A stretch of DNA of 64,000 bases from Zhongshania aliphaticivorans (GTDB lineage: Bacteria > Pseudomonadota > Gammaproteobacteria > Pseudomonadales > Spongiibacteraceae). Location of the stretch: positions 818,742 to 882,741 of the forward strand of contig NZ_CACSIK010000001.1 in the NCBI RefSeq assembly GCF_902705875.1, given 5' to 3'. The notes under the pieces were generated by a model that did no database searches, had not been told where the DNA came from, and worked only from the letters and a program-made list of their open reading frames with translations. Made by a program: the position numbers and the translations under genes. Positions 2,959-44,489 of this stretch are shown here, one piece after another. Each line of letters starts with the position of its first letter. Position 1 is the stretch's first letter.

Positions 2959-3849
2959 TTATTGGTAAGACGGATCATCCATTGGGCCTATAGAGCGCGA
3001 GCGTACAGGCTGAAGTAAGACGGGTTTTAGAGTGTGGGGATACTCTGGTCCCCAGTTTACGGCATCGCCTTTCATTTCTACCGACGCATTGTCGGTATAC
3101 CAGTCTACCAAGTCGCCATCGCAGCGGAGCAACCAAACAGTGCCTTCATCACCGGCGGTAAAATCGCCGTGACGTACCAGTGCAGGGCGGAAGAAGTAGG
3201 TGCCTGGCCACATTTCACCGTAGTTATAGTGAAAACTTCCCTCAAGGCAGTAGGCTTCTTCAAATACGGGGTGATGAGCTAAAGGGTGCTCTCTCCAGCC
3301 GGGCTTGGCTTTAATTAAGCGAGTGTAAAAGCCGGTTTTTTCATCGCGGTATAGCATTTTAATGTAGAGACCGGGAACGGGGGTGCCACCTAAGTCGAAG
3401 CGCATGGGGCTGCCGCTTTCAACGTCAATCCAATCCATTTTACTGCTGTGAGCGACGACCAATTTCTGGTCTTCTCGAACATAGTCTTTATCTTGCTCAC
3501 AGGGTTCAAACTGCCAGTCGCCGTATTCACGGAAGAGTAAAATAACGGTGTCTTTTTTAACCTGAATGTTCGGAGCCACAACGCCCTTTGGTGCGGCCCA
3601 ATAGTCACCGGCAACTAAAACTTGATCGCCGAGGCTGACTTCACCTTCTAAAATATACCACTCGGTTAAGGCGTTATGAACGCCAGAAGGTCGCTGCCAG
3701 TCACTGGTAAATTTAACTTTTGCCGATACTGATCCGTCTTCTTCGTCGTAGCACAAGTTCTGTTGTTGTGCGGTACCGGTGGCGTGTTCAAACTCAGCAA
3801 TATGCCAAATTAAATCTTTTGCATCGATCAGCTCTACATGTGGGCGCAT
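2959..3849 (-). CDS. Tandem cupin protein (DUF4437/ChrR-like)
   Basis: A 296-residue protein with two cupin barrels: one around residues 50-110 (HNALTEWYILEGEVSLGDQ, then GDYWAAPKG) and one around 180-245 (HPVFEEAYCLEGSFHYNYG, then GTYFFRPALVRHGDF). The EG..G and H..G motifs match the anti-sigma ChrR cupin fold, which often binds a metal. It may be a small-molecule isomerase, a hydrolase or a binding protein. AGGAGA lies 5 bases before the ATG. It is followed in the same direction, after 84 bp, by nothing on this strand, while leuC-leuD lie just upstream; the three probably form one transcript of the catabolic cluster. The enzymatic role is not known. Confidence 0.75.
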   Translation of the reverse strand: MRPHVELIDAKDLIWHIAEFEHATGTAQQQNLCYDEEDGSVSAKVKFTSDWQRPSGVHNALTEWYILEGEVSLGDQVLVAGDYWAAPKGVVAPNIQVKKDTVILLFREYGDWQFEPCEQDKDYVREDQKLVVAHSSKMDWIDVESGSPMRFDLGGTPVPGLYIKMLYRDEKTGFYTRLIKAKPGWREHPLAHHPVFEEAYCLEGSFHYNYGEMWPGTYFFRPALVRHGDFTAGDEGTVWLLRCDGDLVDWYTDNASVEMKGDAVNWGPEYPHTLKPVLLQPVRSRSIGPMDDPSYQ

Positions 3850-3933
3850 TTCGTCTCCTGGTCACATTAATCATGTGTTGTTCAATGGTGCGGTCAAAAT
3901 AAATTAAATAACAGCATAAAATTAACGGTGTCT

Positions 3934-4602
3934 TTAGCTTATGCCGGCAGTTTCAGGGTTTCTTTTCGGTTCTTTTACTTTCTTGGGTAAATATATCCAC
4001 GGTCTTGCTAGGCGATCCGCTTGTTCGAATCTATCGATTTCACTATTCATACTAAGGGTTAAGTCGATAGGATCTAGGCCTTGTAACAACATTTTTTTTG
4101 CATTTTCGTCGATATCAAACTGCGCTTGCTGTTGGTCCCATTGCAGTGTTTGATTTTCAAGATTCACGGTAACCCTATGCTGCTGGGGGTTTTGTTCTAC
4201 CCATGCGGCAATGCGTTCTATCTCTTGTTCTGGCAGCTCAACGGGGAGCAAGCCGTTGGCAATGCAATTGTTAAAAAAGATACTGCCAAAACTGGGGGCG
4301 ACTATGCACTTTATGCCATATTCGGCCAGCGCCCATACGGCGTGTTCGCGGGATGAGCCGCAGCCGAAATTATTACCGGCGAGAATGACGCTGCAATGCT
4401 GATATTCAGGAAGATTTAAGACGAAATTATTGTTCGCCTCTCTGCCTCCGGGTAGGGTGTATCGCCAGCTTGCAAACAAGCCTTCACCAAGCCCAACTTT
4501 GGACACTAATTTCATTTCTCGACTCGGAATGATGGCATCCGTGTCTATATTTGGTCGTAATAAGGGGGCAGCAACACCCGAAAAGGTTTCAAAGATTCCC
4601 AT
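3934..4602 (-). CDS. leuD: 3-isopropylmalate dehydratase small subunit (LeuD-like)
   Basis: A 222-residue aconitase-family swivel domain. The markers are NIDTDAIIPSREMK near the N-terminus, GNNFGCGSSREHAVWAL around residues 76-92, and FFNNCIANGLLPVEL around 109-123. It pairs with the large subunit encoded just upstream; the start overlaps that gene's stop as TAATG, so translation is coupled. In leucine synthesis the complex isomerises 2- to 3-isopropylmalate. Here no leuA or leuB is nearby, and the neighbours are CoA-transferase, lyase and amide hydrolases. A hydro-lyase for citraconate, dimethylmaleate or a similar diacid fits better. The C-terminal tail after residue 200 is basic and longer than in E. 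coli LeuD. Confidence 0.85.
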   Translation of the reverse strand: MGIFETFSGVAAPLLRPNIDTDAIIPSREMKLVSKVGLGEGLFASWRYTLPGGREANNNFVLNLPEYQHCSVILAGNNFGCGSSREHAVWALAEYGIKCIVAPSFGSIFFNNCIANGLLPVELPEQEIERIAAWVEQNPQQHRVTVNLENQTLQWDQQQAQFDIDENAKKMLLQGLDPIDLTLSMNSEIDRFEQADRLARPWIYLPKKVKEPKRNPETAGIS

Positions 4603-6017
4603 TAGATAATTTCCTCCGCACTGCCAATACGACCTAATAACGCTGATGCGGCAACAGTCACCGGACTGGCAATATGGGTTTTAACAGCAGGACCTTGGCG
4701 GCCTTCAAAATTTCGATTGGTACTTGAGATAACGCGCTTGCCGGCCCCAAAGGTTTCACCGCCAGCGTAAAAACACATGGAGCATCCTGGCTCCCGCCAT
4801 TCAAATCCGGCGGCTGTAAAAATGAGATCTAAGCCTTCGGCTTCTGCTTGGCGTTTTACTCTGCCGGAGCCGGGCACGCAGACAGCACGTAGATTGGTGG
4901 CAATTTTACGATTCTTTAAAATGGCAGCTGCAGCGCGTAAATCTGCAATCCTGCTATTGGTGCACGAGCCAATAAAGGCCGCGTCAATGACCACGGTGTT
5001 TAGTGTCTGCTCGGCTTTTAGGTCCATATAATTCAGTGCTTTTTCCATGCCGTCGCGCTGTTGCGGGTCGTCACACGCCATGGGGTTGGGAACGCTGCCG
5101 TTAACGGCGACCGAGTGTTGCGGGTTGGTTCCCCAGCTTACGGTTGCCGAAACAGCATCGGCATCAATCTGTATTTCTTTGTCAAAATGTGCGCCCTCAT
5201 CACTGTTAAGGGCTAGCCAATAGGCCTCTGCCTGTTCGGCGGTGTCTGCTTTGGGGGCGTAGTCGCGGCCCTTGACCCAGTCGATGGTTTTTTCGTCCGG
5301 TGCGATAAAACCCGTGAAGGCAGAAAACTCAACTGCCATATTACAGAGTGTGAAGCGTTCTTCTATTGGCATATCGCGGATGGCTGAGCCAGCAAATTCA
5401 ACCGCATAGCCATTGCCACCCTGTGCGCCGTATTCGGCAATAATATGCAAAATAAGGTCTTTTGCACTCACTCCGCTGCGCAGCGTGCCATTGACGACAA
5501 TACGCATAGAGAGTGGTTTTTCAAGGTCTAGGGTTCGCGTGGCCATGGCGTGCTCAGCCTCGGTTGATCCTATTCCCCACGCTAGGGCGCCAATTGCGCC
5601 GAGTGTGCAGGTGTGGCTGTCTGGGCACACTAAGGTAGAGCCGGGAAGTGCTATTCCCAACTCGGGCGAAATAACATGAGCAATCCCTTGGTCGGGGTTG
5701 TTAAGGTCAAAGAGGGTGATGCCGGCTTTAATGGCCTCGTAACGGGTAGCTTGAATGAATTTATGACCAGAGGGCATTAAGGTATTGTCATTGCGGCCCG
5801 GTGTTGTGTCGATGATATGATCCATGGTGCAGAACACATGCTCGGGGCGTGGAATTTTGCGTTTTCGCTCCGATAAACTTTGCAATGCAATGCTGCCGGT
5901 GCGCTCATGGAGAAACACTCTGTCGATGTAAATCAAACTCCGGCGCGCGCCCAGCGAGGTGACCTCGTGGCTTTGCCAGAGTTTTTCAAAGAGCGAACGT
6001 TGATGGAGGTTATTCAT
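4602..6017 (-). CDS. leuC: 3-isopropylmalate dehydratase large subunit (LeuC-like)
   Basis: A 471-residue aconitase-superfamily catalytic subunit of normal length. The three [4Fe-4S] ligands are visible: the Cys in GSCTNSR (about residue 352) and the pair in PGCSMC (about 411 and 414). DSHTCTLGAIGA and NRNFEGRQG are also family signatures. It works with the small subunit encoded one base downstream in a cytoplasmic heterodimer that dehydrates and rehydrates a malate-type acid. The stretch after CSMC (FYAGGETFGAGKR) differs from the enteric LeuC sequence as I remember it, consistent with a different substrate. It is transcribed divergently from the CoA-transferase across a 156-bp AT-rich intergenic region. 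Confidence 0.88.
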   Translation of the reverse strand: MNNLHQRSLFEKLWQSHEVTSLGARRSLIYIDRVFLHERTGSIALQSLSERKRKIPRPEHVFCTMDHIIDTTPGRNDNTLMPSGHKFIQATRYEAIKAGITLFDLNNPDQGIAHVISPELGIALPGSTLVCPDSHTCTLGAIGALAWGIGSTEAEHAMATRTLDLEKPLSMRIVVNGTLRSGVSAKDLILHIIAEYGAQGGNGYAVEFAGSAIRDMPIEERFTLCNMAVEFSAFTGFIAPDEKTIDWVKGRDYAPKADTAEQAEAYWLALNSDEGAHFDKEIQIDADAVSATVSWGTNPQHSVAVNGSVPNPMACDDPQQRDGMEKALNYMDLKAEQTLNTVVIDAAFIGSCTNSRIADLRAAAAILKNRKIATNLRAVCVPGSGRVKRQAEAEGLDLIFTAAGFEWREPGCSMCFYAGGETFGAGKRVISSTNRNFEGRQGPAVKTHIASPVTVAASALLGRIGSAEEII

Positions 6018-6051
6018 TCATTACCGACCAGTGCTTCGTTGTGCTTAATGG

Positions 6052-6075
6052 CTTAACATTATATCATTATAACTT
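6052..6075. promoter_or_regulatory. AT-rich inverted repeat between leuC and CoA-transferase
   Basis: TTATA and TATAA flank a TCAT centre inside TAACATTATATCATTATAAC, in the middle of the divergent intergenic region. It is a candidate shared operator for the two arms of the cluster. The words resemble those in other divergent gaps of this window, at 17480 and 32491. Confidence 0.3.
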
Positions 6076-6173
6076 AATTTATGTGAGAATCCACTTGAAG
6101 TCACAATATTCTGCGTTTTTATGGTGGGTATTGCTCTCTTACCCACAAGTAGAAAGTCTAATTAGGAAGAATT

Positions 6174-7373
6174 ATGAATAAGCCATTAGCGGGAATTCGC
6201 GTTTTAGATCTTACTCACATGCTGTCTGGGCCGTTCTGTACTATGACCTTGGCAGACCTCGGCGCCGATATGATTAAGGTCGAGCCGCTGACCGGCGAGG
6301 GGACACGCAAGCTATTGGCCACTGACCCTAAAAACTCTATAGATGGCATGGGTGCCTACTTTATTACTCTAAATCGCAATAAGCGCACCATGAGTATTGA
6401 TTTGAAATCAGAGCGTGGCTTAGCCTTATTTTACGATTTGGTAAAAGAGTCAGACGTGGTAATTAATAACTTTGCGGCGGGTGTGCCCAGTAAGTTAAAA
6501 ATTGATTACGCACATCTGTCTGAAGTTAATCCTAAAATTATCACCTGCTCCATAACGGGGTTTGGCGAGGAGGGGCCGGGAGCTAAACGTCCGGCGTTTG
6601 ACCAAGTAGCCCAAGCCTACGGTGGAGGTATGTCAATTACCGGTGAAGACAGCAGTCAGCCGGTGCGTGCCGGTATCCCTATTGGCGATTTGGGTGGTGG
6701 CATGTTTGGCATAATGGGTGTGTTAGCGGCCATTATTGAGCGCAATGTGTCTGGAAAAGGTCAGCATGTGGATATCTCAATGTTAGATGTGCAAGTGTCG
6801 CTGCTAAGTTATATGGCCACAATGCACTTTCTATCTGGTGATGACCCAAGCCCTATCGGCAATGCCCACTTTGTTCATGTGCCTTACAATAGTTATCCAA
6901 CGGCGAACGGCCATTTGGTGATTGCGATTATTACCGACAACTTCTGGCAGAACTTAAAAGAAGTGGTTAATTGTGCTGGATTTGATGATCCCAAATACGA
7001 TGTTCAACCGGGACGCTTGGCAGACAAAGACTTTATAGACGGCACATTGGCAGAAATATTCAGTCAAGACACAAGCGAAAATTGGTTAGAAAAACTCAAT
7101 GCCAAGCGCATTCCTGTTGCGCCGGTAAATAAATTTAGTCAGGTATTTGCTGACGAGCAAGTCAACTTCCGTAATATGGTGGTTGAGTGCGAACATCCAA
7201 ATGGCAAAAAAACCAAAGCACCGGGTTGCCCTATTAAGATGTCGCGCACCTCAGAAGAATCCTTTACACCCGCGCCGTTGCTAGGGCAGCATACTGATGA
7301 GTTGATGTGTGACGTATTGGGTTATGGCCCAGAGGACGTGGCCACGCTAAAACAGCAAGGGGTGATTGCTTAA
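6174..7373 (+). CDS. CaiB/BaiF family III CoA-transferase
   Basis: A 399-residue protein that transfers CoA between carboxylic acids through an aspartyl-CoA thioester. It opens with PLAGIRVLDLTHMLSGPFCT and shows GADMIKVEPLTGEGTR, LNRNKRTMSIDLKSERG and SITGFGEEGPGAKRPAFDQV. The catalytic Asp of the family is in the MSIDLKSE-to-FDQVAQAYGG half, most likely the Asp of MLDVQ around residue 204. Length is typical. AGGAAG lies 7 bases before the ATG. Its stop overlaps the start of the HMG-CoA-lyase-like gene as TAATG. Given that coupling, it probably makes the acyl-CoA (a methylmalyl- or citramalyl-type CoA) that the lyase then splits. Confidence 0.9.
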   Translation: MNKPLAGIRVLDLTHMLSGPFCTMTLADLGADMIKVEPLTGEGTRKLLATDPKNSIDGMGAYFITLNRNKRTMSIDLKSERGLALFYDLVKESDVVINNFAAGVPSKLKIDYAHLSEVNPKIITCSITGFGEEGPGAKRPAFDQVAQAYGGGMSITGEDSSQPVRAGIPIGDLGGGMFGIMGVLAAIIERNVSGKGQHVDISMLDVQVSLLSYMATMHFLSGDDPSPIGNAHFVHVPYNSYPTANGHLVIAIITDNFWQNLKEVVNCAGFDDPKYDVQPGRLADKDFIDGTLAEIFSQDTSENWLEKLNAKRIPVAPVNKFSQVFADEQVNFRNMVVECEHPNGKKTKAPGCPIKMSRTSEESFTPAPLLGQHTDELMCDVLGYGPEDVATLKQQGVIA

Positions 7374-8281
7374 TGTCTGAAAAGATCATTATTAATGATG
7401 TTGGGCCGCGAGATGGTTTGCAGAATCAAGCCAAGGTATTAACCCCCGCGCAGCGCCTGCAGATTATTGAATCACTCTTAGCAGCCGGTGCTAAACATAT
7501 TGAAGTGGGTGCATTTGTGTCGCCCAAGGCAGTGCCGGCGATGGCTGGCACCGATCAAGTTGTGGCTGGCCTGCCCAAGGGCGATTATGAATTTTCTGCC
7601 CTTATTCCTAATTTACGTGGTTACGAGCTTGCCAAGGCTGCGGGTGTGAATACCGTTGGCTTAGTGGTGGCGAGTAGCGAAACCATGAATTTAAAAAACA
7701 TCAAAATGACAACCGCGCAGGCCATGGCGGTGTGCAGTGATGTTTTGGCATTAAGTAAAACCGAGGGAATTAGAAGCCAGGTTTATTTGGCGACAGCATG
7801 GGAGTGTCCGTTTGAAGGCGTCATTGATACCCAGCAAGTGGTAGATTTGGTTGGCGAAATACTAGCCGCAGGAGCGAGTGAAGTTGTACTGGCTGACACC
7901 ATTGGTGCCGCCTCGCCTGCCGGAGTAAAGCACTTATTGCAGGCCATTGAATCAGTCCACGGCACGCAAGCCATTAGTTGTCATTTTCATGATACGCGAG
8001 GTATGGGCGTGGCTAATGTGTATGCCGCCGTTGAGCAAGGTATCCGCAAATTTGATGCCTCTATTGGTGGCCTAGGCGGCTGTCCTTTTGCGCCGGGTGC
8101 AACCGGAAACGTAGCAACCGAGGACGTTGCCGTAATGCTAGAGCAGATGGGTTTTGATACTGGTTTGAATTTTCGTGGCCTGCTTGCCGCGATAGACTTA
8201 GTATCGGAATTAACCGGCAACTGTGATGGCGGGCATTCAAGCCGCTGGATACGCCGGCAAGTAGAAATGGATCGTATGTAA
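7373..8281 (+). CDS. HMG-CoA lyase family C-C lyase
   Basis: A 302-residue DRE-TIM metallolyase barrel. DVGPRDGLQNQ at residues 9-19 holds the catalytic Arg and Asp. CHFHDTRGMGVANVYAA around 200-216 supplies the metal-binding His pair. GLGGCPFAPGATGNVATED around 232-250 is the HMG-CoA lyase signature with its active-site Cys. The family cleaves a 3-hydroxy-3-methyl acyl-CoA into acetyl-CoA or a homologue plus a keto acid. Coupling to a CoA-transferase rather than to an acyl-CoA carboxylase/enoyl-hydratase set argues against plain leucine degradation; a (methyl)malyl-CoA-type substrate is the inference. The gene is complete and its codon use resembles its neighbours. Confidence 0.9.
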   Translation: MSEKIIINDVGPRDGLQNQAKVLTPAQRLQIIESLLAAGAKHIEVGAFVSPKAVPAMAGTDQVVAGLPKGDYEFSALIPNLRGYELAKAAGVNTVGLVVASSETMNLKNIKMTTAQAMAVCSDVLALSKTEGIRSQVYLATAWECPFEGVIDTQQVVDLVGEILAAGASEVVLADTIGAASPAGVKHLLQAIESVHGTQAISCHFHDTRGMGVANVYAAVEQGIRKFDASIGGLGGCPFAPGATGNVATEDVAVMLEQMGFDTGLNFRGLLAAIDLVSELTGNCDGGHSSRWIRRQVEMDRM

Positions 8282-8318
8282 GGTGTTTTTAGAGCGCAAG
8301 CAATAGATAGGGGATGGC

Positions 8319-8990
8319 ATGGAAAAGAGTGATAAAACGGCACGTGAACTTTACGCAGAAATAAAAGCGAATCCGGCAAGAAAAAGATTTGGTTTTGGTC
8401 GTAAGGCTGTTTTGGTCAATATTGATCCACAAAAAGCCTACACGCGAACGGATTTATATAAAACGGCGTATGAAACTGACCCGCGTCAGCTTGAGTATGT
8501 TAACAATCTTGCCAAGGTTTTTCGCGCTTTGGATTGGCCGGTAGTGTGGACCCATGTTGCTTATATGGACTCTGCCGACGATGCGGGTATTTGGGGGACG
8601 CGCACTAACACCCCAGATAGTTTGCAGAACATTAAATTTGATAGCGACCGCTCACAATTTGATGAGCGCTTAGAGATTGATCAAGCTAAAGATGTTATTT
8701 ATTTAAAAAAAATGCCGTCAGCTTTTTTTGAAACTCATTTGCAGTCATTGTGTGTTTGGCATCAGGTAGACACGGTGATACTCACCGGCGGCTCCACCTC
8801 AGGTTGTATTCGCGCAACGGCGGTAGACTCTTTGTCTCGTGGTTACCGCACCATTGTTCCTGAAGAGTGTGTGGCCGATAAACACGAAAGTTACCACTTC
8901 GCCAACCTTACCGACTTGGCTTTAAAGTATGCCGACGTGGTTGATGTGCAAGAAGTGTTTGATTGGTTGGCAACACAAGATTCGGAATAA
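8319..8990 (+). CDS. Isochorismatase-family cysteine hydrolase (probable amidase)
   Basis: A 223-residue cysteine hydrolase with the full catalytic triad: Asp in VNIDPQKAY (about residue 34), Lys in IYLKKMPSAFF (about 130) and Cys in GGSTSGCIRATAVDS (about 165). The cis-peptide turn precedes the Cys as usual. Relatives include N-carbamoylsarcosine amidase, nicotinamidase and maleamate amidase (NicF), all of which release ammonia from amides or carbamoyl groups. GGGGAT lies a few bases before the ATG. Placed between the C-C lyase and two PuuE-like hydrolases, it most likely hydrolyses an amic or ureido acid made by ring opening, but the substrate is inferred from context alone. Confidence 0.88.
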   Translation: MEKSDKTARELYAEIKANPARKRFGFGRKAVLVNIDPQKAYTRTDLYKTAYETDPRQLEYVNNLAKVFRALDWPVVWTHVAYMDSADDAGIWGTRTNTPDSLQNIKFDSDRSQFDERLEIDQAKDVIYLKKMPSAFFETHLQSLCVWHQVDTVILTGGSTSGCIRATAVDSLSRGYRTIVPEECVADKHESYHFANLTDLALKYADVVDVQEVFDWLATQDSE

Positions 8991-9002
8991 GGTGAGGGCG
9001 GC

Positions 9003-9944
9003 ATGAAAGAAGATCCCGGATATTACGACTATTGGCCCTACTTTAAACGTCCCAAAATAACTTGGCCCAATGGCGCAAAATTGGCATTTTGGCTTGCACC
9101 CAATATTGAATTTTACGAGCTGAATCCGCCGCCCAATCCTCAGCGTAAACCCTGGCCGCAAGCGACGCCTGCGGTGGCAGGCTATAGTATCCGTGACTAC
9201 GGCAATCGGGTTGGCCATCAGCGCCAAATGGCATTATTAGATAAATACGGTATTCGTGGTTCTATTTCTCTGTCCACCGCGCTGTGCGATCATCATCCCG
9301 AGATCATCAGCCAGTGCAGCGAGCGTAACTGGGAGTTTTTTAGCCACGGTATTTATAATACCCGCTATACCTACGGCATGAGTGAAGCTCAGGAACGCGA
9401 AATGATTCGCGACTCTATCGACACGATACACCGCCATACTGGGCAAAAATGTGCCGGTTATCTCGCCCCCGCGCTGTCTCACTCCGACAATACCATCGAC
9501 CTTTTTGCCGAGGTAGGCAGTGAATTGTTTGGTGACGACGCCGGCTTTTATACCTGTGATTTATTTCACGATGATCAGCCAACGCCAATACATACTCGCT
9601 CTGGCAAAGAGTTTGTCTCGGTTCCTTATTCCTTAGAAATGAATGACACCATCGCCTATGTCGTCAATAAAATTGAACCACGGCGTTATGGTCAGCAACT
9701 AAAAGATTGTTTTGATCGCTTATACGCAGAAGGCAGTGAGAGTGGCACGGTCATGTGCATTCCAACCCATAATTATCAAGTAAGTTGCCCGCACAGAATG
9801 AAAGCGTTTGAAGAGGCGCTGGAATACATCACTGGTCACAGTGATGTGTGGGTGACCACTGGCCGTGAGATTGCAGAGTATTATCGTGAGCACTATTTAG
9901 CATCGAGCAAAGACGCCATTCTAAACGTGCAAGGAGGCTTGTGA
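9003..9944 (+). CDS. PuuE-like polysaccharide-deacetylase-fold hydrolase A
   Basis: A 313-residue protein of the NodB/polysaccharide deacetylase fold, most like the PuuE allantoinase and cyclic-imide hydrolase branch. Visible pieces are YSIRDYGNRVGHQRQMALLD around residues 60-79, EFFSHGIYNTRYTYGMSE near 117-134, and CAGYLAPALSHSDNTIDLFAE near 155-175. The TFDDG metal motif of chitin or peptidoglycan deacetylases is absent. There is no signal peptide, so it should act in the cytoplasm on a small molecule. Activity on a cyclic amide or imide C-N bond fits the amidase just upstream. It shares its fold and several motifs with the next gene, suggesting a duplicated or heteromeric enzyme. Confidence 0.82.
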   Translation: MKEDPGYYDYWPYFKRPKITWPNGAKLAFWLAPNIEFYELNPPPNPQRKPWPQATPAVAGYSIRDYGNRVGHQRQMALLDKYGIRGSISLSTALCDHHPEIISQCSERNWEFFSHGIYNTRYTYGMSEAQEREMIRDSIDTIHRHTGQKCAGYLAPALSHSDNTIDLFAEVGSELFGDDAGFYTCDLFHDDQPTPIHTRSGKEFVSVPYSLEMNDTIAYVVNKIEPRRYGQQLKDCFDRLYAEGSESGTVMCIPTHNYQVSCPHRMKAFEEALEYITGHSDVWVTTGREIAEYYREHYLASSKDAILNVQGGL

Positions 9945-9946
9945 GC

Positions 9947-10873
9947 ATGAGCTTACCGAACGATTATTTACAATACCCGCAACGCAGCTACGGCATGGAC
10001 CATGATCGTTATAGCTGGTCAATGCTTGAAAATCGCAAGCCCGTAACCTGGCCAGATGGCAAGTTGCTCGCACTTTGGGTCAATGTGAATTTACAGTATT
10101 ACCCGCTTAACCAACAGGGTGTACCGTTTGCGGTGCCTGGTGGCATGACAATGCCATACCCCGATCTACGCCACTATTCGCTGCGCGACTACGGTAACCG
10201 CGTGGGCTTGTTCCGTATTTTAAAAGCCTTAGATGCGAACAACATCACCGCAAGTTTTGCAGTGAACTCACGCTTATTACAACGCATACCGTATTTAGCG
10301 GGTTTATTACGCGAACGCGGCGATGATATTTTGGGCCACGGTGTTCACATGGATGCCTTGCACTATGGCGGCCAGAGTGAAGCAGAAGAGTCGTCACAAA
10401 TTGTTGAATGCGTATCCGTGCTTAGAGATTTGACGGGCCAGCCAGTAGACGGTTGGTTGTCGCCGGTGAGAAGTGAATCTGAAAATACCCCCGATCTATT
10501 GGCAGAAAACGGAGTGCGGTATTTTTCAGATTGGGTGAACGATGACATGCCCTATGAATTTTCAACTAGCTCAAAGCCCTTGATCGCCATGCCATTGAGC
10601 AATGAAATTGAAGACCGTTTTGTGATCGTCAATAATCAGCATTCAGAAGCTAGCTGGGCTCAGCAGGTAGAAGACGCTGCAGCATTTTTGCTAGACGAAG
10701 CGCACCGTTCTGGCGGGCGTATCTTGAGTTTAAATATTCATCCTTGGTTGCTTGGCCAACCCCATCGCATTCAGTTTTTTGAAGCGGTGTTAAGTACTTT
10801 AGCGGCTAACCCTGCGGTGTGGAGTGCGGCCCCCAGTACTATCTTGGACACGTGGGCATCACAGCAGTCATAA
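9947..10873 (+). CDS. PuuE-like polysaccharide-deacetylase-fold hydrolase B
   Basis: A 308-residue paralogue of the preceding protein. YSLRDYGNRVGLFRILKALD, ILGHGVHMDALHYGGQSE and VDGWLSPVRSESENTPDLLAE line up with the corresponding blocks there. I start it at the ATG 9947, because AAGGAGG ends 9 bases before it; the in-frame GTG at 9941 overlaps the previous stop but is only 3 bases from that site. It lacks a signal peptide and the TFDDG metal motif. Like its partner it probably hydrolyses a cyclic C-N bond in the cytoplasm, perhaps as the second subunit. It is the last gene of the plus-strand catabolic operon and a strong terminator follows. Confidence 0.82.
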   Translation: MSLPNDYLQYPQRSYGMDHDRYSWSMLENRKPVTWPDGKLLALWVNVNLQYYPLNQQGVPFAVPGGMTMPYPDLRHYSLRDYGNRVGLFRILKALDANNITASFAVNSRLLQRIPYLAGLLRERGDDILGHGVHMDALHYGGQSEAEESSQIVECVSVLRDLTGQPVDGWLSPVRSESENTPDLLAENGVRYFSDWVNDDMPYEFSTSSKPLIAMPLSNEIEDRFVIVNNQHSEASWAQQVEDAAAFLLDEAHRSGGRILSLNIHPWLLGQPHRIQFFEAVLSTLAANPAVWSAAPSTILDTWASQQS

Positions 10874-18294: not shown

Positions 18295-18942
18295 ATGGAA
18301 TTATACAATTTGCCACATTCACCCTATGCCGCTCGGGTACGAATGTTAATTTATGAGCGCGATTTAGCCGTCGATCTTTGCGACCCGCCGGGTGGTATGG
18401 GAAGTGAGGAATACCGCAGTTTAACGGTGATGGGCAAGGTGCCGGTGTTAAAGCATGGCGATCGCTATTTGTCTGAATCTACCGCGATTATGGAATACTT
18501 AGAGGCGCTATATCCCGATGGCAAGCTAACACCAGAAGATGCATGGCAGCGCAGTCAGCAAAGCGCCATGATTCGCTATGTCGATTTGTATTTTGCCCAA
18601 GCGTTGTTCCCTCTTTTTCAACAAATGAAAGCCTCGCCACGAGATCAGCAAGTTGTTGATGCCGCCTTGGTAAACCTGAGTGCAGAACTTAAACGGCTAC
18701 AGGCATGGTATGAATTACCGGAATTAGCTCCTTCCTCTAGCCTTAGTTTGGCGGATTGTGTGGTGATGCCGGTGTTGTTTTATGTGGTGAGTTTGTCGCC
18801 CTTTTTTGGCGAAAATGAACCGCTATTGGCAACCCCTGTACTGGCCGAACGCTGGGCATGGGCGCAAGAGCAGGCGGCATCCAAGCGGGTGTTGGGTGAG
18901 ATGGCTGCCGGCTTAAAAGCCATGATGTCACCGGCGAATTAA
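18295..18942 (+). CDS. Glutathione S-transferase family protein
   Basis: A 215-residue protein with the thioredoxin-like N-terminal domain (YNLPHSPYAARVRMLIYERDL at 3-23, VPVLKHGDRYLSESTAIMEYLEALYP around 45-70) and an all-helical C-terminal domain (85-215). The cis-Pro (VPVL) and the S-x-I glutathione-binding motif (SESTAI) are present, and a Ser in PHSPYA may activate glutathione. Family members conjugate glutathione to electrophiles or isomerise maleyl-type intermediates. The neighbours, a membrane protein and two alpha/beta hydrolases, hint at detoxification or ester catabolism, but no specific substrate can be named. Confidence 0.88.
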   Translation: MELYNLPHSPYAARVRMLIYERDLAVDLCDPPGGMGSEEYRSLTVMGKVPVLKHGDRYLSESTAIMEYLEALYPDGKLTPEDAWQRSQQSAMIRYVDLYFAQALFPLFQQMKASPRDQQVVDAALVNLSAELKRLQAWYELPELAPSSSLSLADCVVMPVLFYVVSLSPFFGENEPLLATPVLAERWAWAQEQAASKRVLGEMAAGLKAMMSPAN

Positions 18943-18964: not shown

Positions 18965-19918
18965 TTGGCTAAATTCTTAAAAGTGCTGTTGCTCGGCGTT
19001 GCGACCTTGTTGCTTGTTATTGCGGCGTATATCGCATGGAGTTTGCTGGCTTATCGCGATATACCCACTGCCGAGCTTGTTGCTCGCTACGGTCAGGGTG
19101 CGCAGTTTGCTGACTTAGAAGGTACGCCGATTGCTTATCGAGTCAGTGGTGATCTAAACGCAGGGCCGCCTTGGGTCTTATTACACTCTCATTATTTTGA
19201 TTCGCTAATGTGGGACGATGTAATAAGCCACTTGGCCCCAGGTCATGCAGTGATTCGTTATGACATGACATCTCATGGCCTTAGCGGTCCAGATGCGCAA
19301 TCGAATTATAGTATGGACCGCGATGTGGCGATTCTGGATGCGCTGTTAAATAAGTTAAATGTTAAATCTGCCTTGGTGGTGGGTTCGTCATTAGGTGGCA
19401 ATATTGCTTTTCATTATGCCGCCAAATTTCCTGAGCGCACAGCGGGCTTGGTGCTGATTAATTCTGGCGGTATTAAACGCCAGCAGAGTAGCCGTCGCAG
19501 CGCTGCCGGCATTCCACCGTGGTTTTATCGCGTTTTTTATTTTATACCCACCATCGCTTATCGCAAATTTATAGAGTGGATGGTGGTAGACAAGACGGTA
19601 GTGAGTGAGAGTCTGGTTGAACGTTTTCACGATATGTTTAGGCATAAGGGTAATCGGCAAGCAGAAATGCAGCGCATGGCGAGCTTTGATGCCGGTGAGC
19701 CGAGTGAAGTGCTAGGGGCAATACGGGCGCCTAGCTTAATTATTTGGGGGCGGAAAAACCCCCAACTCCCGGTAGCACTTATGACCCAGTTTGAAAATTT
19801 GATGACAAATACCGAATCGATTACCTCTGAGATTGTTGATGGGACAGGGCATTTACTGCCTGTCGAGCGGCCAGAAATAACGGCGACACTGCTCGATCGT
19901 TTTAGGGGCAGTTTATGA
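18965..19918 (+). CDS. Alpha/beta hydrolase, membrane-anchored
   Basis: A 317-residue protein starting at a TTG, supported by GGAGAAG 8 bases upstream; no better start exists before the hydrophobic anchor FLKVLLLGVATLLLVIAAYI at residues 4-23. The fold is clear: HSHYFD oxyanion loop near 75, nucleophile elbow GSSLGGN near 141-147 and GTGHLLPVERP (His) near 295. The usual WGxxDxxxP acid motif reads WGRKNPQLP, so the expected catalytic Asp is Asn; the acid may be elsewhere or activity reduced. Esterase, lipase or C-C hydrolase roles are all possible. The stop overlaps the next start as ATGA. Confidence 0.85.
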   Translation: MAKFLKVLLLGVATLLLVIAAYIAWSLLAYRDIPTAELVARYGQGAQFADLEGTPIAYRVSGDLNAGPPWVLLHSHYFDSLMWDDVISHLAPGHAVIRYDMTSHGLSGPDAQSNYSMDRDVAILDALLNKLNVKSALVVGSSLGGNIAFHYAAKFPERTAGLVLINSGGIKRQQSSRRSAAGIPPWFYRVFYFIPTIAYRKFIEWMVVDKTVVSESLVERFHDMFRHKGNRQAEMQRMASFDAGEPSEVLGAIRAPSLIIWGRKNPQLPVALMTQFENLMTNTESITSEIVDGTGHLLPVERPEITATLLDRFRGSL

Positions 19919-20949
19919 TTGTGGATCGCGGTGATTTTTTTAGCCTTAAAATAAATCCTTGTTGGGCGGTGTTATTGTTGTGTTTACTGCTCTCGGCATG
20001 CGGTGAGCCACTGGTATTAGAAGAGGCCACGCCGCTAGGCGCTGAGCGAGCAGCATTAGAGAGCATCCCCGGCTATCCCCAAGGTTCTTATGAGTATCAG
20101 CTGATCGAACGGGTTGGTCTTAAAGCCGAGCAGGGCGGCATGATCGATCTGCGAGTGTGGTATCCCTTTAGCGAAGAGCCAGCCCCCGTCATTATTTTTT
20201 CTCATGGCAATTGGTCGGATAAAGACCGTTACGACAACATTTTATCGCACTGGGCAAGTTACGGTTTTGTGGTGATTGCTGGCACTCACTTAGATGGCAA
20301 AAATATGGCCAGAGGTATTTTCAATGCCCTGCGTCATGGCAATGATGGCTTAATTGCCCAGCGAGTGGCGGACATAAATTATCTGCTGGATCATATTGAA
20401 GAGCTACAAGAATTATTACCGCTGCGTTTGGACGCCAACCGTGTTGCGGTGGCAGGGCATAGTTTTGGTGCTTTTACGGCCCAGCAATTTTCAGGTGCGC
20501 GGGCGATAACAGAAAAGGGCGATATTTCTGCTGATGATCGTCGCGTTAATGCCGTGGTGGCACTGTCACCGCCTGGTCCAATGTTTGATGAAATTACCGC
20601 AGAGAGTTGGACGCAGATGCACGGTCCAGTCTTGATGTCAACGGGAACGCACGATGTAAACGCGCAGTTCTGGCCGGATTGGCGCGACCATAAAATGAGT
20701 TTTGATACTGCGCCAGATGGCCATCAATATGCACTTGTCGTGCAGGGTGCGGATCACTATCTGGGCAACCTAATATGCCGGCCAGATCGAGATGCAGAGC
20801 CGCAACACGATGCCCTTAATGTCGTAAATGCGGTATCGACACTCTTTCTTCTTGCCTATGTGAATGGTGATCTTCAGGCCATGGAGTGGCTTGATCAATT
20901 AGAGTTAAGTGCGACCAGCGGTGGCTTTGCCGAATTGCATACCCATTAA
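19915..20949 (+). CDS. Lipoprotein alpha/beta hydrolase (PAF-acetylhydrolase/chlorophyllase-like)
   Basis: A 344-residue secreted hydrolase. The signal peptide ends in the lipobox LLSAC at residues 26-30, so it is a lipidated envelope protein. The oxyanion strand is VIIFSHGNWSDK (about 92-103), the nucleophile elbow VAVAGHSFGAFTAQ (about 180-193), with likely acid in STGTHDVN and His in QGADHYL. This layout resembles bacterial PAF-acetylhydrolase-like and chlorophyllase-like dienelactone hydrolases, which act on ester bonds. It is translationally coupled to the preceding hydrolase, so the two may act in sequence on one ester substrate, one outside and one at the membrane. The ester is unknown. 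Confidence 0.82.
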   Translation: MIVDRGDFFSLKINPCWAVLLLCLLLSACGEPLVLEEATPLGAERAALESIPGYPQGSYEYQLIERVGLKAEQGGMIDLRVWYPFSEEPAPVIIFSHGNWSDKDRYDNILSHWASYGFVVIAGTHLDGKNMARGIFNALRHGNDGLIAQRVADINYLLDHIEELQELLPLRLDANRVAVAGHSFGAFTAQQFSGARAITEKGDISADDRRVNAVVALSPPGPMFDEITAESWTQMHGPVLMSTGTHDVNAQFWPDWRDHKMSFDTAPDGHQYALVVQGADHYLGNLICRPDRDAEPQHDALNVVNAVSTLFLLAYVNGDLQAMEWLDQLELSATSGGFAELHTH

Positions 20950-24226: not shown

Positions 24227-24985
24227 TTAGTTCTCTGCTAACAACGAGCCAAATCCTTTAATGCGGTCGGGGATGCCATTATTGCGGAGCGCATGCCAAA
24301 AGGTGATGGCGTTAATGGCTAAAACGGGTTTTCCTAATTCTTGTTCTAGCTGCGCGGCTAATTCAACAAAGTGCAAATTCGTACCGGCCTGTAAAATCAA
24401 ATCTATATCGTCACCATCTACCTTTTTGACCAGTGCGCGGTTATCGCCAGACGTTTCATAGGCAATGCTGACAGGGCTGTCAGATTTGTGGCCTTCTATA
24501 CGCACGACTTCATAACCGATATCGGCTAAAAATTTTACCACCATGCCGTCACCAACAGGCATATATGGGGTGATGACACCAATGCGCTTTACGCCGGGAT
24601 AGCATTTTAAGGCATCCATAATGGCTTGGGCGCCAAAGGTAATATTACAGCCGCCTTCGGCTTGGGCAATGCTGTTGTAACGTTCAAATTCTCGGTCGGA
24701 GCGATCTTTGCCATCCCAGAAGGTTTCAGCGGAATATCCAAAAATAACATGGTCAGGTAATACCGTCAGGGCGTCCCGCAAACCTTGTTCAGTAGCGTTG
24801 CCAATAGCTTTAACCAGTGCCACAAAGCTGTCTTCGTCGGTGACCGACATGGGTGGAATAACACAGGCCCGCGTTGCCAGTACCACGCCTTCGGGGCACA
24901 TCTTGTGATACTCGGTTTCTACTGCCGTATTTGTGGATGGGACAAGTACCGCAAATTTTTTACGGTAGCCATAATAATCGACCAT
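24227..24985 (-). CDS. Asp/Glu racemase superfamily protein (maleate isomerase/AMDase-like)
   Basis: A 252-residue protein of the two-domain racemase fold. It has KFAVLVPSTNTAVETEY at 9-25, DHVIFGYSAETFWDG near 78-92, IGVITPYMPVGDGMV near 140-154, and PVLAINAITFWHALRN near 222-237. These blocks correspond to those of maleate cis-trans isomerase and arylmalonate decarboxylase. The two positions that hold catalytic Cys in racemases read Tyr (FGYSAE) and Ala (LQAGTN), so both expected cysteines are missing; the other Cys residues are elsewhere. It may catalyse a different reaction or bind a dicarboxylate. The gene is transcribed divergently from an SDR gene across a palindromic operator. Confidence 0.8.
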   Translation of the reverse strand: MVDYYGYRKKFAVLVPSTNTAVETEYHKMCPEGVVLATRACVIPPMSVTDEDSFVALVKAIGNATEQGLRDALTVLPDHVIFGYSAETFWDGKDRSDREFERYNSIAQAEGGCNITFGAQAIMDALKCYPGVKRIGVITPYMPVGDGMVVKFLADIGYEVVRIEGHKSDSPVSIAYETSGDNRALVKKVDGDDIDLILQAGTNLHFVELAAQLEQELGKPVLAINAITFWHALRNNGIPDRIKGFGSLLAEN

Positions 24986-28125: not shown

Positions 28126-29418
28126 TTAGCCAGGCTCAGCTGAATTTGGGTTGATAATTTTTGACCTAATTATTAGCGAGCTGATGAAAACAAGCATATT
28201 TAAAACCCCAAAAAGTACAAAGGGTGCGCTGGGGCTAAATGCCGCAAATAACCAGCCACCACCGGCGGTGCCGACGAGGATACCAACGGCACCGGCAACG
28301 CCGAAAAATCCGATGACGGCTCCCCGGCGAGCACGTGGTGCTTGCTGTCCTACTAGTGCTTGGCTAGATACAAAGGCACTGATTTCGGCCACACCCATTA
28401 TTCCCAGTAAGGCAAAGACCCAGGGTGAGGTTGGGTCATCGACAAGGCCGACGCTGAGGTATACACAGCCAGCGAGTCCAGCTGCTAATGTTACCGCGGT
28501 GCTACGGCGAATTTTGTCGGCGATAAATCCCATGGCAATGGCGCCAATCATCGCGCCCGTTACCGTGGTTAAAATGCGTGGCACCGCAAGTTCTTGCATG
28601 GCTTGACTGGGTGCCATGCCCAAGTTTTGAGTGCCAAACTGCACCAGCCATAAACCCATAAAGGCTCCCGTAACAGCAAGATCGCCTCGGGAAATAAATG
28701 CAGCGCCATAGCTCAGAGCCACGCCGGGGTCTTTGGCGGCGGCCAAACCTTTTTTGAGCATGGTGGATAGTGGCTCTTGCGCTTGTTTTACCAAGACTGT
28801 TGTTTTGGGTGCCAAGCCAATGAGGACAACGGCGGTGCCAACAATCCCCATGGCGCCACCAATTCCAAAGCTCGCTTGTTGGGCCTCAAGCTCAGTGAAT
28901 CCTTTGCTGACAAAGATGCCGGGTAAAATACCCAGTATCGGTGGAATGAATGCACCAAACGTGGCAATGAGCCCTTGCAAGCCATTGGCTTTGCCACGGT
29001 CTTTGTCGCTGCTGTAGTCGGCAATCACCGTTACCATCATGCCGATCATTGCCGCTCCACCAAGGGCGATAACTAAGCGAAACGCAATGAGCTGGGGAAG
29101 ATTTTGGGCGTAGGGATAAATAATAAAACCAAGGGCGGTGAAGCTAAGTCCAAAGGCATAAACCGAGCGCCGGCCTATGCGGTCGGCGAATACGCCAAAT
29201 AGGCCCATGGTAAGAATTAAAACCGCCTCTTGAGCCGCGCCGAGAAGCCCTGTGATATGAGCTTGGTCAGCCGTGGCGTAGCCCAGAGTGGCTAATAGGC
29301 CGGGTTGCAGTACGGCCAATGCACCCGCGTAGCCTGATGAAATAAAGGCGGCAATTAAATAGGCGGTGAGGTGTCGTGGGCGAATGCCCTCAGATAATTC
29401 TATGCCAAGGGCTCGCAT
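28126..29418 (-). CDS. MFS transporter
   Basis: A 430-residue transporter with about twelve membrane helices. The cytoplasmic loop 2-3 motif of the superfamily reads GVFADRIGRRSVYA near 75-88, and a second copy in the C-terminal half reads GFIADKIRRSTAVT. It should carry a small solute by proton coupling at the inner membrane; direction is unclear. GAGGAA precedes the ATG. It is the last gene of a minus-strand operon with an RCC-reductase-like protein, an SDR, an epimerase-like protein and a DUF2141 protein, nine bases after the RCC-reductase stop. It may import the pathway's substrate or export its product. Confidence 0.9.
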   Translation of the reverse strand: MRALGIELSEGIRPRHLTAYLIAAFISSGYAGALAVLQPGLLATLGYATADQAHITGLLGAAQEAVLILTMGLFGVFADRIGRRSVYAFGLSFTALGFIIYPYAQNLPQLIAFRLVIALGGAAMIGMMVTVIADYSSDKDRGKANGLQGLIATFGAFIPPILGILPGIFVSKGFTELEAQQASFGIGGAMGIVGTAVVLIGLAPKTTVLVKQAQEPLSTMLKKGLAAAKDPGVALSYGAAFISRGDLAVTGAFMGLWLVQFGTQNLGMAPSQAMQELAVPRILTTVTGAMIGAIAMGFIADKIRRSTAVTLAAGLAGCVYLSVGLVDDPTSPWVFALLGIMGVAEISAFVSSQALVGQQAPRARRGAVIGFFGVAGAVGILVGTAGGGWLFAAFSPSAPFVLFGVLNMLVFISSLIIRSKIINPNSAEPG

Positions 29419-29427
29419 GGTGTTTCC

Positions 29428-30240
29428 TCAATAGGTTTTACTTTTTTGCATTTGATCTTTGCCCATACGCACGTCGATCATGTGTTCAACCTGATCTTCG
29501 CCAAAGACTTGGGCGGCCAGTTTGTTCATGGGATCTAGTCGATAACCGAGTTCACGCACTTTGTGGTCATAGCGTTGTAGCTCGGCTCGTTTTTCTTCTG
29601 GCACGGGGGTGGCGTTATCTAACCAGCCAAGCCAGCGATTTAAAAAACGGTAGGCAAAATCTTCTAGAATATCGATGTTTTCGTCAGTCAGCTCCGCGCT
29701 TAAACTGAGTGCAGAGGGTGATAACAATGCGCGCATATACGGGCCGTGGCTTACAGACCATTGGAAGTTTGGATGGCCGCGCAATTCGAGGAAGTCGGCG
29801 TTGGCTTCGTCGCCGTAATATTTGTTGAGATACTCTTCGTCAATGCGAATATCACTGCGGGGAGTAAAATCAAAATAGAAAAACAGTTTTGGAATGGTGC
29901 CAAAAACCATAATGAAATGCGGCACATCGGTTTCTTGGCCAAGAAAGGCGGTGGCGTTCATATCAAGAATACTGGCCTTGCGATTGCCCAGCCAAGAATT
30001 GACTAGCCACTCAACACCCTTGCCAGACCATGCCTGCATAGAGCCTTCAAATTCGCCGTTGGGAGAGGTGTAATATTCACGCCCCTCGCAGTTTGGGTCT
30101 AATTGGAAATCGGAAAAACGTTCGGCAATACGATTTTTGATGTCGGTTAGAATATGGAAGCTGCGCTCCCACGCTTTACTGACATCAACGTCTGGATTTT
30201 CTGCAAGAAACTGGTCAATGGTTTTGGTATCGGCGGTCAT
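29428..30240 (-). CDS. Red chlorophyll catabolite reductase-like protein
   Basis: A 270-residue soluble protein. From about residue 60 it follows the order of blocks in plant RCC reductase: WLVNSWLGN, NATAFLG, VPHFIMVFG, LFFYFDFTPRSDIRIDEEYLNKYYG, then GPYMRALLSPSALSLSAE. Plant RCC reductase and bilin reductases such as PcyA are ferredoxin-dependent enzymes that reduce open-chain tetrapyrroles. The D in FDFTPRSD and the RxxxSP turn are kept; the acid after the PNFVVE-type strand in plants is a Val here, as I recall the alignment, so the reaction may differ. TGAGG precedes the ATG. It sits third from the end of the operon, between an SDR and an MFS transporter. Confidence 0.65.
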   Translation of the reverse strand: MTADTKTIDQFLAENPDVDVSKAWERSFHILTDIKNRIAERFSDFQLDPNCEGREYYTSPNGEFEGSMQAWSGKGVEWLVNSWLGNRKASILDMNATAFLGQETDVPHFIMVFGTIPKLFFYFDFTPRSDIRIDEEYLNKYYGDEANADFLELRGHPNFQWSVSHGPYMRALLSPSALSLSAELTDENIDILEDFAYRFLNRWLGWLDNATPVPEEKRAELQRYDHKVRELGYRLDPMNKLAAQVFGEDQVEHMIDVRMGKDQMQKSKTY

Positions 30241-30270: not shown

Positions 30271-31065
30271 TTAAAGTCCGAAGGCTTCGAACTGATCTTG
30301 CCGCGCTTTGATACGGCTTTTTAACATTCGTATTGCGATTTTTTTTCCGTTGAGCCAGCGAATTTTATGACCCGATTTTGTGGTGGCAAGAATTTGTTCT
30401 ACCAACCAAGGCGCGACGGTTTCGACGGTGTCGACTAAGTTGTTCATCATTTTTCGGGATTTTTGAAAGTTGTCAAAATCAGCTTTGGCTTCGCGAATAA
30501 CCCCCTCGGTAATAATCATTCCGGGGCGAATTTTGGCGACGATGACGGGTGTGTCTTTTAGTTCTTTTACCAATGCATTGGTAAAGTAATCCAGACCGCG
30601 CTTGGTGCTGCCATAAATCCCCATGCCAGGAAAGGTTTCGCCATCGCTACCGCCGCCAAGCATATTGAATATTTTGCCGTGGCCTTGTTGCAACATGCCA
30701 GAGGCCGCTACTTTGCTGCCATTAATGGTGCCGAGCATATTGGTGGTAATCATGGCTTGTACTTCGTCGTGTGGGGTGTCGACGATGGACCACACTGTAC
30801 GGGCTAGCCCGGCATTGTTAATCCAGATGTCTACGCTGCCAAATAAGTGTTGGGCTTCATCCCACAGGGCTTGCACCTGTTGAAAATCGCGGACATCAGC
30901 AACCTTGCCGTAAACGGTGCCGCAGTTTTTTAGTGTGTGCAGGGCATCGTCTATGCTGGCTTGATGACTCCCCGCGATAAGAACCTGATGATCGCCTCTA
31001 GCAAATTCACGGGCCAGTCCCAAGCCAATACCTTTTGTGCTGCCGGTGATAACGATATTGGCCAT
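30271..31065 (-). CDS. Short-chain dehydrogenase/reductase
   Basis: A 264-residue SDR from the ATG at 31065. A longer frame would start inside the upstream gene, but only this start leads directly into the Rossmann strand ANIVITGSTKGIGLG. NNAG is near 85, MLGGGSDG near 140 replaces the usual Ser-Ser strand, and YGSTK near 151-155 is the catalytic Tyr-x3-Lys. KIRPGMIITEGV follows. An N/H-rich loop after GSHQ suggests neither cofactor clearly. The C-terminal 60 residues (KKIAIRMLKSRIKARQDQFEAFGL) are basic and extended. The gene begins 4 bases after the epimerase-like stop, so it is in one operon with the RCC-reductase-like protein. Confidence 0.88.
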   Translation of the reverse strand: MANIVITGSTKGIGLGLAREFARGDHQVLIAGSHQASIDDALHTLKNCGTVYGKVADVRDFQQVQALWDEAQHLFGSVDIWINNAGLARTVWSIVDTPHDEVQAMITTNMLGTINGSKVAASGMLQQGHGKIFNMLGGGSDGETFPGMGIYGSTKRGLDYFTNALVKELKDTPVIVAKIRPGMIITEGVIREAKADFDNFQKSRKMMNNLVDTVETVAPWLVEQILATTKSGHKIRWLNGKKIAIRMLKSRIKARQDQFEAFGL

Positions 31066-31069
31066 CGTC

Positions 31070-44452: not shown

Positions 44453-44489
44453 TTGCTGAAACAATAATGTGAAGATACAGGTTACTGAT

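Follow-up and report, generated by a model that had tools for sequence, protein, structure and literature searches.

What substrate calls for two ring-opening hydrolases, an amidase, a hydro-lyase, a coenzyme A (CoA)-transferase and a carbon–carbon lyase in a single gene cluster? The question is raised by eight genes of Zhongshania aliphaticivorans (RefSeq assembly GCF_902705875.1), which lie together in a stretch of 64,000 nucleotides of contig NZ_CACSIK010000001.1. This whole stretch is hereafter called the window (G000:C1:818742-882741, in a genome of 3.98 Mb), and its positions are counted from its first letter. All eight open reading frames (ORFs) are open and full-length, with strong family matches among Pfam and NCBIfam profiles (Table 1). 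They form two divergent sets: the minus strand carries leuC-leuD-cupin, the plus strand caiB-hmgl-amidase-puuE1-puuE2. Neighbouring genes inside each set are spaced by -4 to 84 bases, and no convincing operator is found among the inverted repeats of the spacer between the sets. An initial annotation of the window had named these families (a tandem cupin, LeuD, LeuC, a CoA-transferase, an HMG-CoA-lyase-like (HMGL) enzyme, an isochorismatase-type amidase and two PuuE-like hydrolases) and joined them into a route from a cyclic imide or N-heterocycle to acyl-CoA fragments; profiles and coordinates confirm each family at its place.

The cluster is real and conserved, and it is well explained as an imide-to-acyl-CoA route, of which no description is found among the literature matches listed, most subscription papers being outside their scope. 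Sequence comparison suggests that it is probably the nitrogen-releasing, carbon-recovering lower branch of bacterial tetrapyrrole catabolism, with chlorophyll as the most likely feed. A homologue of red chlorophyll catabolite reductase (RCCR) in the same window, together with the RCCR or CpeT genes of most related genomes, points to tetrapyrrole breakdown, a putative link with strong genomic support. The likely source of the substrate, alkylmaleimides derived from pigment, is the element that is new beyond the initial annotation.

Conserved linkage around puuE1

A scan of 84,980 species genomes with PuuE1 gives 529 relatives, and the loci counts given here refer to the best 80, which come from Gammaproteobacteria, Flavobacteriaceae, Saprospiraceae, Kordiimonadaceae and others (PuuE1 identity 77-87%). 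The grouping of the genes is not due to chance, because puuE1 and puuE2 are found in all 80 loci and the amidase gene in 78, both misses being loci that start just upstream of puuE1. By script, puuE2 adjoins puuE1 in 79 loci and the strict order amidase-puuE1-puuE2 is found in 75; the five failures comprise two loci that start just upstream of puuE1 (L063, L080) and three with over-long ORF calls (L020, L049, L064). The trio is kept across Gammaproteobacteria, Bacteroidota and alphaproteobacterial metagenome-assembled genomes, and the initial annotation, which had staked its reading on such linkage, is borne out in this respect.

The genes for the later steps accompany the trio less regularly. 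Profile searches of the flanks, up to 10 kb around puuE1 and often ending at a contig end, detect leuC in 42 of the 80 loci, leuD in 42, CaiB in 45, HMGL in 35, a PrpB/isocitrate-lyase-family gene in 22 and an HpcH/HpaI-family gene in 8. At least one of these three lyase families is found in 53 flanks; 39 flanks combine leuC with a lyase, and 56 have at least one of the two. The genome of Z. aliphaticivorans has four aconitase-family genes, and a random 20-kb stretch of it is estimated to contain one in ~2% of cases. Of 21 other genomes searched, mostly selected for their RCCR, 17 have the window-type HMGL gene (46-72% identity); with Z. aliphaticivorans included, this gene lies within 88 kb of RCCR in 16 of 18 genomes, within 25 kb in 14, and on another contig in two. 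The tandem cupin, which the initial annotation had counted among the enzymes of the route, is matched in just six of the 80 loci (two of the six at 66-70% identity), and it was dropped as a core enzyme for this reason.

Hydro-lyases and lyases of different lineages

The enzymes for hydration and cleavage have been recruited from different lineages. In a tree of 45 LeuC sequences, which includes just two leucine LeuCs and leaves out outside PRK12466 sequences, the window LeuC groups with other LeuCs of imide loci in a clade of 14 rows (support 99/98) that excludes both E. coli LeuC and the LeuC of the genome's own leuCDB; the window row is among the long branches of which the tree warns. This clade covers the loci of the window, Alteromonas, Halieaceae, Sphingobium and Acidiphilium. 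The LeuCs of the Burkholderia, Paraferrimonas and Alkalimonas loci and of the Flavobacteriaceae loci fall far from it, those of Billgrantia and Hydrogenophaga form a fourth group beside the leucine-type LeuC (support 90/85, below the star mark of the tree), and for a second LeuC from Sphingobium the placement with the leucine type is weakly supported (85/70). The LeuCs of imide loci hence belong to several lineages, and three lyase families recur in their neighbourhoods, two of which, PrpB and HpcH/HpaI, have a common superfamily fold. The HMGL-CaiB and the isocitrate-lyase-family versions are found together on a plasmid of Sphingobium TomTYG65.

This use of different enzymes for what would be the same chemistry, hydration of a maleate-like diacid and cleavage of a malate-like one, is the best evidence for the route. 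Together with the conserved linkage, it supports imide opening, deamidation, hydration and carbon–carbon cleavage as steps. The reaction logic of the initial annotation (imide opening, release of ammonia, hydration, CoA addition and cleavage) is thereby supported; no support is found for counting the cupin among the core enzymes or for nicotinate breakdown beyond the level of analogy.

The amidase and the PuuE-like hydrolases

The amidase is proposed to be of the maleamate type. Its nearest solved structure is 4l07 (E 1.2e-27), and 4l07/4l08 and 3uao, all among its nearest structures, are taken here to be isochorismatase-family maleamate amidases, with which it has an Asp-Lys-Cys triad in common. 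The N-carbamoylsarcosine amidohydrolase 26st scores almost as well (E 5.8e-27). In at least 97% of 81 sequences the triad residues D36, K130 and C163 are kept, Asp-Lys-Cys being the triad motif of isochorismatase-type maleamate amidases.

PuuE-like hydrolases 1 and 2 score 35.3 and 35.8 bits with PF01522 (cut-off 23.1). In PuuE1, 166 of 313 positions are conserved in at least 97% of 77 sequences, and besides PuuE the structure 3qbu matches it (E 6.4e-10). It is proposed to be a cyclic imide hydrolase, possibly for alkylmaleimides. Proteins matching puuE1 at E <= 1e-60 number 3510, and all names given among the 120 of them listed are allantoinase or a deacetylase.

A third PuuE-like gene is found beside an HpcH/HpaI lyase and an acyl-CoA dehydrogenase at six loci (L008, L009, L015, L017, L020, L023), at five of them accompanied by CaiB genes, and these loci may be read as a second imide-type set.

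Co-occurrence with RCCR and CpeT

RCCR and CpeT are linked to puuE1 both statistically and physically. The control sample comprises 370 genomes drawn evenly from the class, in which five genomes have a puuE1 orthologue (at least 60% identity) and 365 have none. RCCR is found in two of the 370, one of them Z. aliphaticivorans, and both are among the five with puuE1; CpeT is also found in two, one with puuE1. Behind the 80 puuE1 loci stand 79 genomes, of which 22 have RCCR (E <= 0.001; 19 above the cut-off) as against 0 of the 365 controls (Fisher 2e-18, kinship ignored). CpeT is present in 31 of 44 RCCR-less puuE1 genomes tested (57 are RCCR-less in all) and in one of the 365 controls. Four genomes of the class examined alongside the 44, one of them with CpeT, bring the former count to 32 of 48. 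RCCR or CpeT is hence found in at least 53 of 79 puuE1 genomes as against 1 of 365 (Fisher 1.4e-47, kinship again ignored).

The genes are also close to each other. RCCR and puuE1 are on one contig in 16 of the 22 genomes, 5.6-72 kb apart in all 16, and distances of 20 kb or less are observed nine times as against 2.5 expected by random placement on the same contigs. In 14 of the 16 flavobacterial genomes (G396 and G404 were left out), the contig of puuE1 bears three to five copies of CpeT, which lie within 60 kb with the exception of a single copy. At related loci the neighbours include RCC_reductase (12 of the 80 flanks), a VanA-type Rieske oxygenase (13), CpeT/CpcT (22) and a chlorophyllase-like hydrolase (5), with any of the four in 37.

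Putative pigment-related genes of the genome

The RCCR homologue of the window matches Arabidopsis RCCR (3agb) with E 2.7e-13 and phytochromobilin synthase (6kmd) with 0.0039, and by these matches it is closer to RCCR than to bilin reductases. A second RCCR copy, at C1:747755, is divergent from a Rieske oxygenase gene. A Rieske gene is found in 10 of 43 RCCR stretches (with flanks of up to 1.5 kb), in all ten beside an RCCR of the C1:747755 type, and the bacterial Rieske enzyme is VanA-type. About 11 kb beyond the second RCCR, 759226-760023 codes for a protein without a Pfam match, whose model (pLDDT 90.3) has RCCR structures as its top matches (TM about 0.7), followed by bilin reductases. Of 25 other genomes searched, again mostly selected for RCCR, 18 encode relatives of this protein (49-72% identity). 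The operon around it codes for a nitrilase, flavin enzymes, aldehyde dehydrogenases and an isochorismatase, and at the Litorivivens locus (L006) the corresponding genes directly precede amidase-puuE1-puuE2. In this genome, the genes for a Rieske oxygenase, RCCR-type reductases and a flavin monooxygenase are all no more than about 80 kb away from puuE1.

The gene run at G000:C1 about 757.5-767.7 kb (L166 1527-11681) comprises the nitrilase, the RCCR-fold protein, an acyl-CoA-dehydrogenase-like flavin enzyme, two aldehyde dehydrogenase-like genes, an alpha/beta hydrolase, the isochorismatase, a GntR-like regulator and an FAD monooxygenase; it is probably the middle part of the pathway. Elsewhere, a highly conserved protein of 322 amino acids is encoded beside RCCR or Rieske genes (L165 9747-10715; homologues in L029, L043, L049, L057, L067, L081 and L085), two members of which are without a Pfam match. 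Its model is poor (mean pLDDT 54.9), and its beta-barrel hits, DUF3598, nitrobindin, CpeT and UnaG, are suggestive.

Proposed route

We infer the following reactions, substrates and upper pathway. The pigment would first be degraded by a Rieske oxygenase, RCCR-type reductases and a flavin monooxygenase, which would leave monopyrrolic alkylmaleimides, namely methylethylmaleimide, methylvinylmaleimide and hematinic acid imide. Methyl-, methylethyl- and methylvinylmaleimide and hematinic acid are given as degradation products of chlorophyll and heme in the available text of PMC7318184. The two PuuE-like hydrolases would then open the imide to an alkylmaleamate, from which the amidase would release ammonia to leave a dialkylmaleate; LeuCD would hydrate this to a tertiary dialkylmalate, the CaiB-type transferase would convert the latter to its CoA thioester, and the HMGL enzyme would cleave the dialkylmalyl-CoA by a retro-Claisen reaction into a 2-oxo acid and an acyl-CoA. 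A tertiary dialkylmalyl-CoA would be a fitting substrate, since tertiary alcohols are what HMGL enzymes act on. The CaiB protein of the window misses the cut-off in all seven NCBIfam families that it matches.

Methylethylmaleimide would in this way give ethylmethylmaleate and ammonia and then, for example, 2-oxobutyrate and propionyl-CoA, while hematinic acid imide would give 2-oxoglutarate and propionyl-CoA, or pyruvate and glutaryl-CoA. At other loci a PrpB/isocitrate-lyase-family or HpcH/HpaI-family lyase is found next to the HMGL enzyme or instead of it. A second HMGL/CaiB pair is present in this genome at C1 about 809-812 kb; with two PuuE enzymes and two such pairs, two different maleimides could be processed.

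Comparison with known systems

Anaerobic nicotinate breakdown in Eubacterium barkeri employs dimethylmaleate hydratase and 2,3-dimethylmalate lyase. The proposed route is similar in that an aconitase-superfamily hydro-lyase would hydrate a dialkylmaleate before carbon–carbon cleavage; moreover, the LeuD/DmdB family cut-off (TIGR02087, 108.95) is passed by one flavobacterial small subunit tested (L033, 198.4), and the PrpB/isocitrate-lyase family is represented at related loci as described above. On the other hand, the window LeuD misses this cut-off (82.5), in the window an HMGL-type lyase would cleave a CoA ester, and the maleate would come from an imide.

HxnM of Aspergillus is proposed, from mutant metabolite data, to be a cyclic imide hydrolase that opens the ring before an amidase acts, and it is 64% identical to a Pseudomonas putida cyclic imide hydrolase homologue (PMC9304392, available text). 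It is described there as related to PuuE and 3qbu, the latter of which also matches window PuuE1, and the order of imide opening followed by an amidase is the same as that proposed here. The HxnM system differs in that its imide is six-membered, its amidase HxnN belongs to another family, and no downstream hydro-lyase, CoA-transferase or lyase is described in the available text of that paper.

The plant phyllobilin pathway, with pheophorbide oxygenase (PaO) and RCCR, resembles the present set in its RCCR homologues and in the Rieske oxygenase beside one RCCR type. It differs in that the bacterial Rieske enzyme is VanA-type and the PaO domain PF08417 is absent from the genome. To our knowledge, plants are not known to mineralise the rings of chlorophyll.

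Evidence against a pigment source and alternative explanations

Several observations weigh against a pigment source. In the window the RCCR gene and the cluster are ~19 kb apart, with other genes between them, and do not form one operon, and the chlorophyllase match is weak. The genome has no match to PF08417, which is matched in two of 14 control genomes, and a plant-type PaO was rejected for it on this ground; a profile search does not find CpeT in it either, and the Staygreen profile matches none of 32 genomes, the control likewise being without a match. Neither leuC nor a lyase is found in the flanks of 24 of the 80 loci, many of these flanks being truncated. The statistical comparison, besides ignoring kinship, sets 79 puuE1 genomes against 365 controls that span fewer phyla, the former including Bacteroidota and the latter not. 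As for the compounds themselves, hematinic acid was found in leaves and maleimides were undetected, older reports being cited for them, in the available text of PMC7318184.

The puuE1 genomes without either marker also belong here. Three of the five puuE1 genomes of the class draw (G317, G147 and G042) have neither RCCR nor CpeT, and 13 of the 44 RCCR-less genomes tested, Billgrantia included, are without CpeT too. On plasmids, the trio is found with varied partners in Comamonas, Burkholderia, Salipiger, Sphingobium and Acidiphilium, and neither RCCR nor CpeT appears by name in the incomplete gene tables of the five plasmid stretches. The copies of puuE1 without RCCR or CpeT indicate that the imide module also exists apart and can serve another source. 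The cluster might accordingly degrade imides more generally, with small substituted maleimides or succinimides that stem from soil, plants or chemicals, and not specifically from tetrapyrroles, as its substrates, the neighbouring RCCR serving some other purpose. This is unlikely; the contrast of at least 53 of 79 genomes with 1 of 365, and the close physical linkage, speak against it. Slightly less likely still is that the same module is fed by a bilin, phycobilin or heme-derived biliverdin, and not by chlorophyll, which is a version of the tetrapyrrole reading, so that the probabilities of the two overlap. CpeT, which we take to be a bilin-lyase family, is multi-copy near puuE1 in Flavobacteria, RCCR and bilin reductases have a common fold, and a heme oxygenase match lies ~12 kb from puuE1 in gammaproteobacterium NOR5-3 (L019, G382, C6:1940175). 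Against this, heme oxygenase (PF01126) is absent from the genome of Z. aliphaticivorans and present in only four of 32 genomes, a finding that also tells against a pigment source and for which heme oxygenase was rejected as an entry point; the window RCCR is much nearer to plant RCCR than to a bilin reductase, and one RCCR type adjoins a Rieske oxygenase. The plant pathway has a Rieske enzyme as the step directly before RCCR. This order is stated in PMC10151467.

Breakdown of a ureide, pyrimidine or pyridine (nicotinate) ring by an allantoinase-type PuuE is very improbable, judged by family scores and by the enzymes of known routes. PuuE is the nearest characterised family, and the flavin monooxygenase, alpha/beta hydrolase and second isochorismatase of the related operon resemble nicotinate-type genes. 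The PuuE-like proteins, however, score 113.7 and 94.3 with the PuuE equivalog TIGR03212 (cut-off 424.6), and being so far below it they are not filed as allantoinases; the amidase scores 23.6 with RutB (cut-off 377.95), and neither allantoin nor pyrimidine breakdown is known to involve LeuCD, CaiB and a lyase. It is hardly credible that LeuCD simply makes leucine beside unrelated neighbours. The initial annotation would have been contradicted by a leucine-type LeuCD in a genome without another leuCD, which is not what is observed here. LeuD does pass the leuD equivalog TIGR00171 (212.4, cut-off 116.25), but LeuC stays below the leuC equivalog TIGR00170 (548.7, cut-off 560.25) and is set apart from leucine LeuC in the tree. 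A separate leuC-leuD-leuB is present at C1:1.54 Mb, its leuB running off the locus, so that LeuCD of the window need not be taken for the leucine enzyme.

Other genes of the window

Genes around the cluster and around RCCR are included in Table 1. Homologues of the transporter beside RCCR are found in seven of the 80 related loci (best 61% identity) and 14 of the 43 RCCR stretches, and a short-chain dehydrogenase of the neighbouring type in 11 of the 43. The chlorophyllase-like hydrolase scores almost equally with PF03403 (36.5 bits, cut-off 20) and has homologues in five of the 80 loci. The arylmalonate decarboxylase-family protein, presumably maleate isomerase-like, is 38% identical to the product of the gene after the Rieske and short-chain dehydrogenase pair near the other RCCR of the genome.

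Table 1. Positions of the cluster genes and of other features in the window, with proposed roles
Feature	Position	Strand	Evidence or remark
Double cupin, DUF4437	2959..3849	-	PF14499, 129 bits; doubtful route member
LeuD-like small subunit, proposed dialkylmaleate hydratase	3934..4602	-	PF00694; PRK01641 250.6 bits, cut-off 167
LeuC-like large subunit, proposed dialkylmaleate hydratase	4602..6017	-	PRK12466 subfamily, 666 bits, cut-off 531
Divergent spacer, 156 bases, between both gene sets	6018..6173		Coordinates
Family III CoA-transferase (CaiB), proposed dialkylmalate activation	6174..7373	+	PF02515 405.2 bits, cut-off 23.3
HMG-CoA-lyase-like, proposed dialkylmalyl-CoA lyase	7373..8281	+	PRK05692 312.5 bits, cut-off 246
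Isochorismatase-family amidase, proposed alkylmaleamate amidase	8319..8990	+	PF00857
PuuE-like hydrolase 1, proposed alkylmaleimide hydrolase	9003..9944	+	PF01522; PuuE 3cl6 E 1.5e-24
PuuE-like hydrolase 2, possible second imide hydrolase or partner	9941..10873	+	PF01522
Glutathione S-transferase family, shared neighbour	18295..18942	+	Pfam; homologues in 9/80 loci
Alpha/beta hydrolase, shared neighbour	18965..19918	+	Pfam; homologues in 4/80 loci
Chlorophyllase-like alpha/beta hydrolase	19915..20949	+	Weak PF07224 36.6 bits, cut-off 26
Arylmalonate decarboxylase-family protein	24227..24985	-	PF17645 36 bits, cut-off 25.9
Transporter, MFS-like, beside RCCR	28126..29418	-	Homologous to cluster with MFS_1 representative
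RCCR homologue	29428..30240	-	PF06405 58.5 bits, cut-off 24.9
Short-chain dehydrogenase beside RCCR	30271..31110	-	Pfam; homologue of clusters 43 and 25

Three further regions may be mentioned. A HEPN (RiboL-PSP) domain protein (11286-12134; 29.2 bits, cut-off 28.4) is encoded between the cluster and what appears to be an RND efflux pump. At 44469-47143 an aldehyde dehydrogenase-like gene, resembling cluster 8 near puuE1 in Flavobacteria, is followed by an overlapping gene that we read as cytochrome P450-like. Upstream of the window (L091 3998-6244 and 16012-19340) are genes read as those of a polysaccharide-lyase-like protein and of a mannitol-type dehydrogenase with a transporter, hinting at an alga-associated lifestyle.

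Implications

The yearly production and degradation of chlorophyll amount to about 10^12 kg (PMC7318184, available text). Among the literature matches listed, most subscription papers being outside their scope, there is no bacterial gene set that uses the pyrrole remains of chlorophyll. It is possible, though this broader proposal is more tentative than the assignment of the cluster itself, that a complete pathway for mineralising chlorophyll exists in marine bacteria from two or more phyla, in which an oxygenase and RCCR-type reductases would open the macrocycle and split it and the cluster would turn each alkylmaleimide set free into ammonia, a 2-oxo acid and an acyl-CoA. If so, this would be, within the literature searched, the first genetically defined route that returns both the nitrogen and the carbon of chlorophyll to central metabolism; puuE1 would become a marker gene for bacterial pigment recycling, and many paralogues of LeuCD, CaiB and HMGL would gain a testable function.

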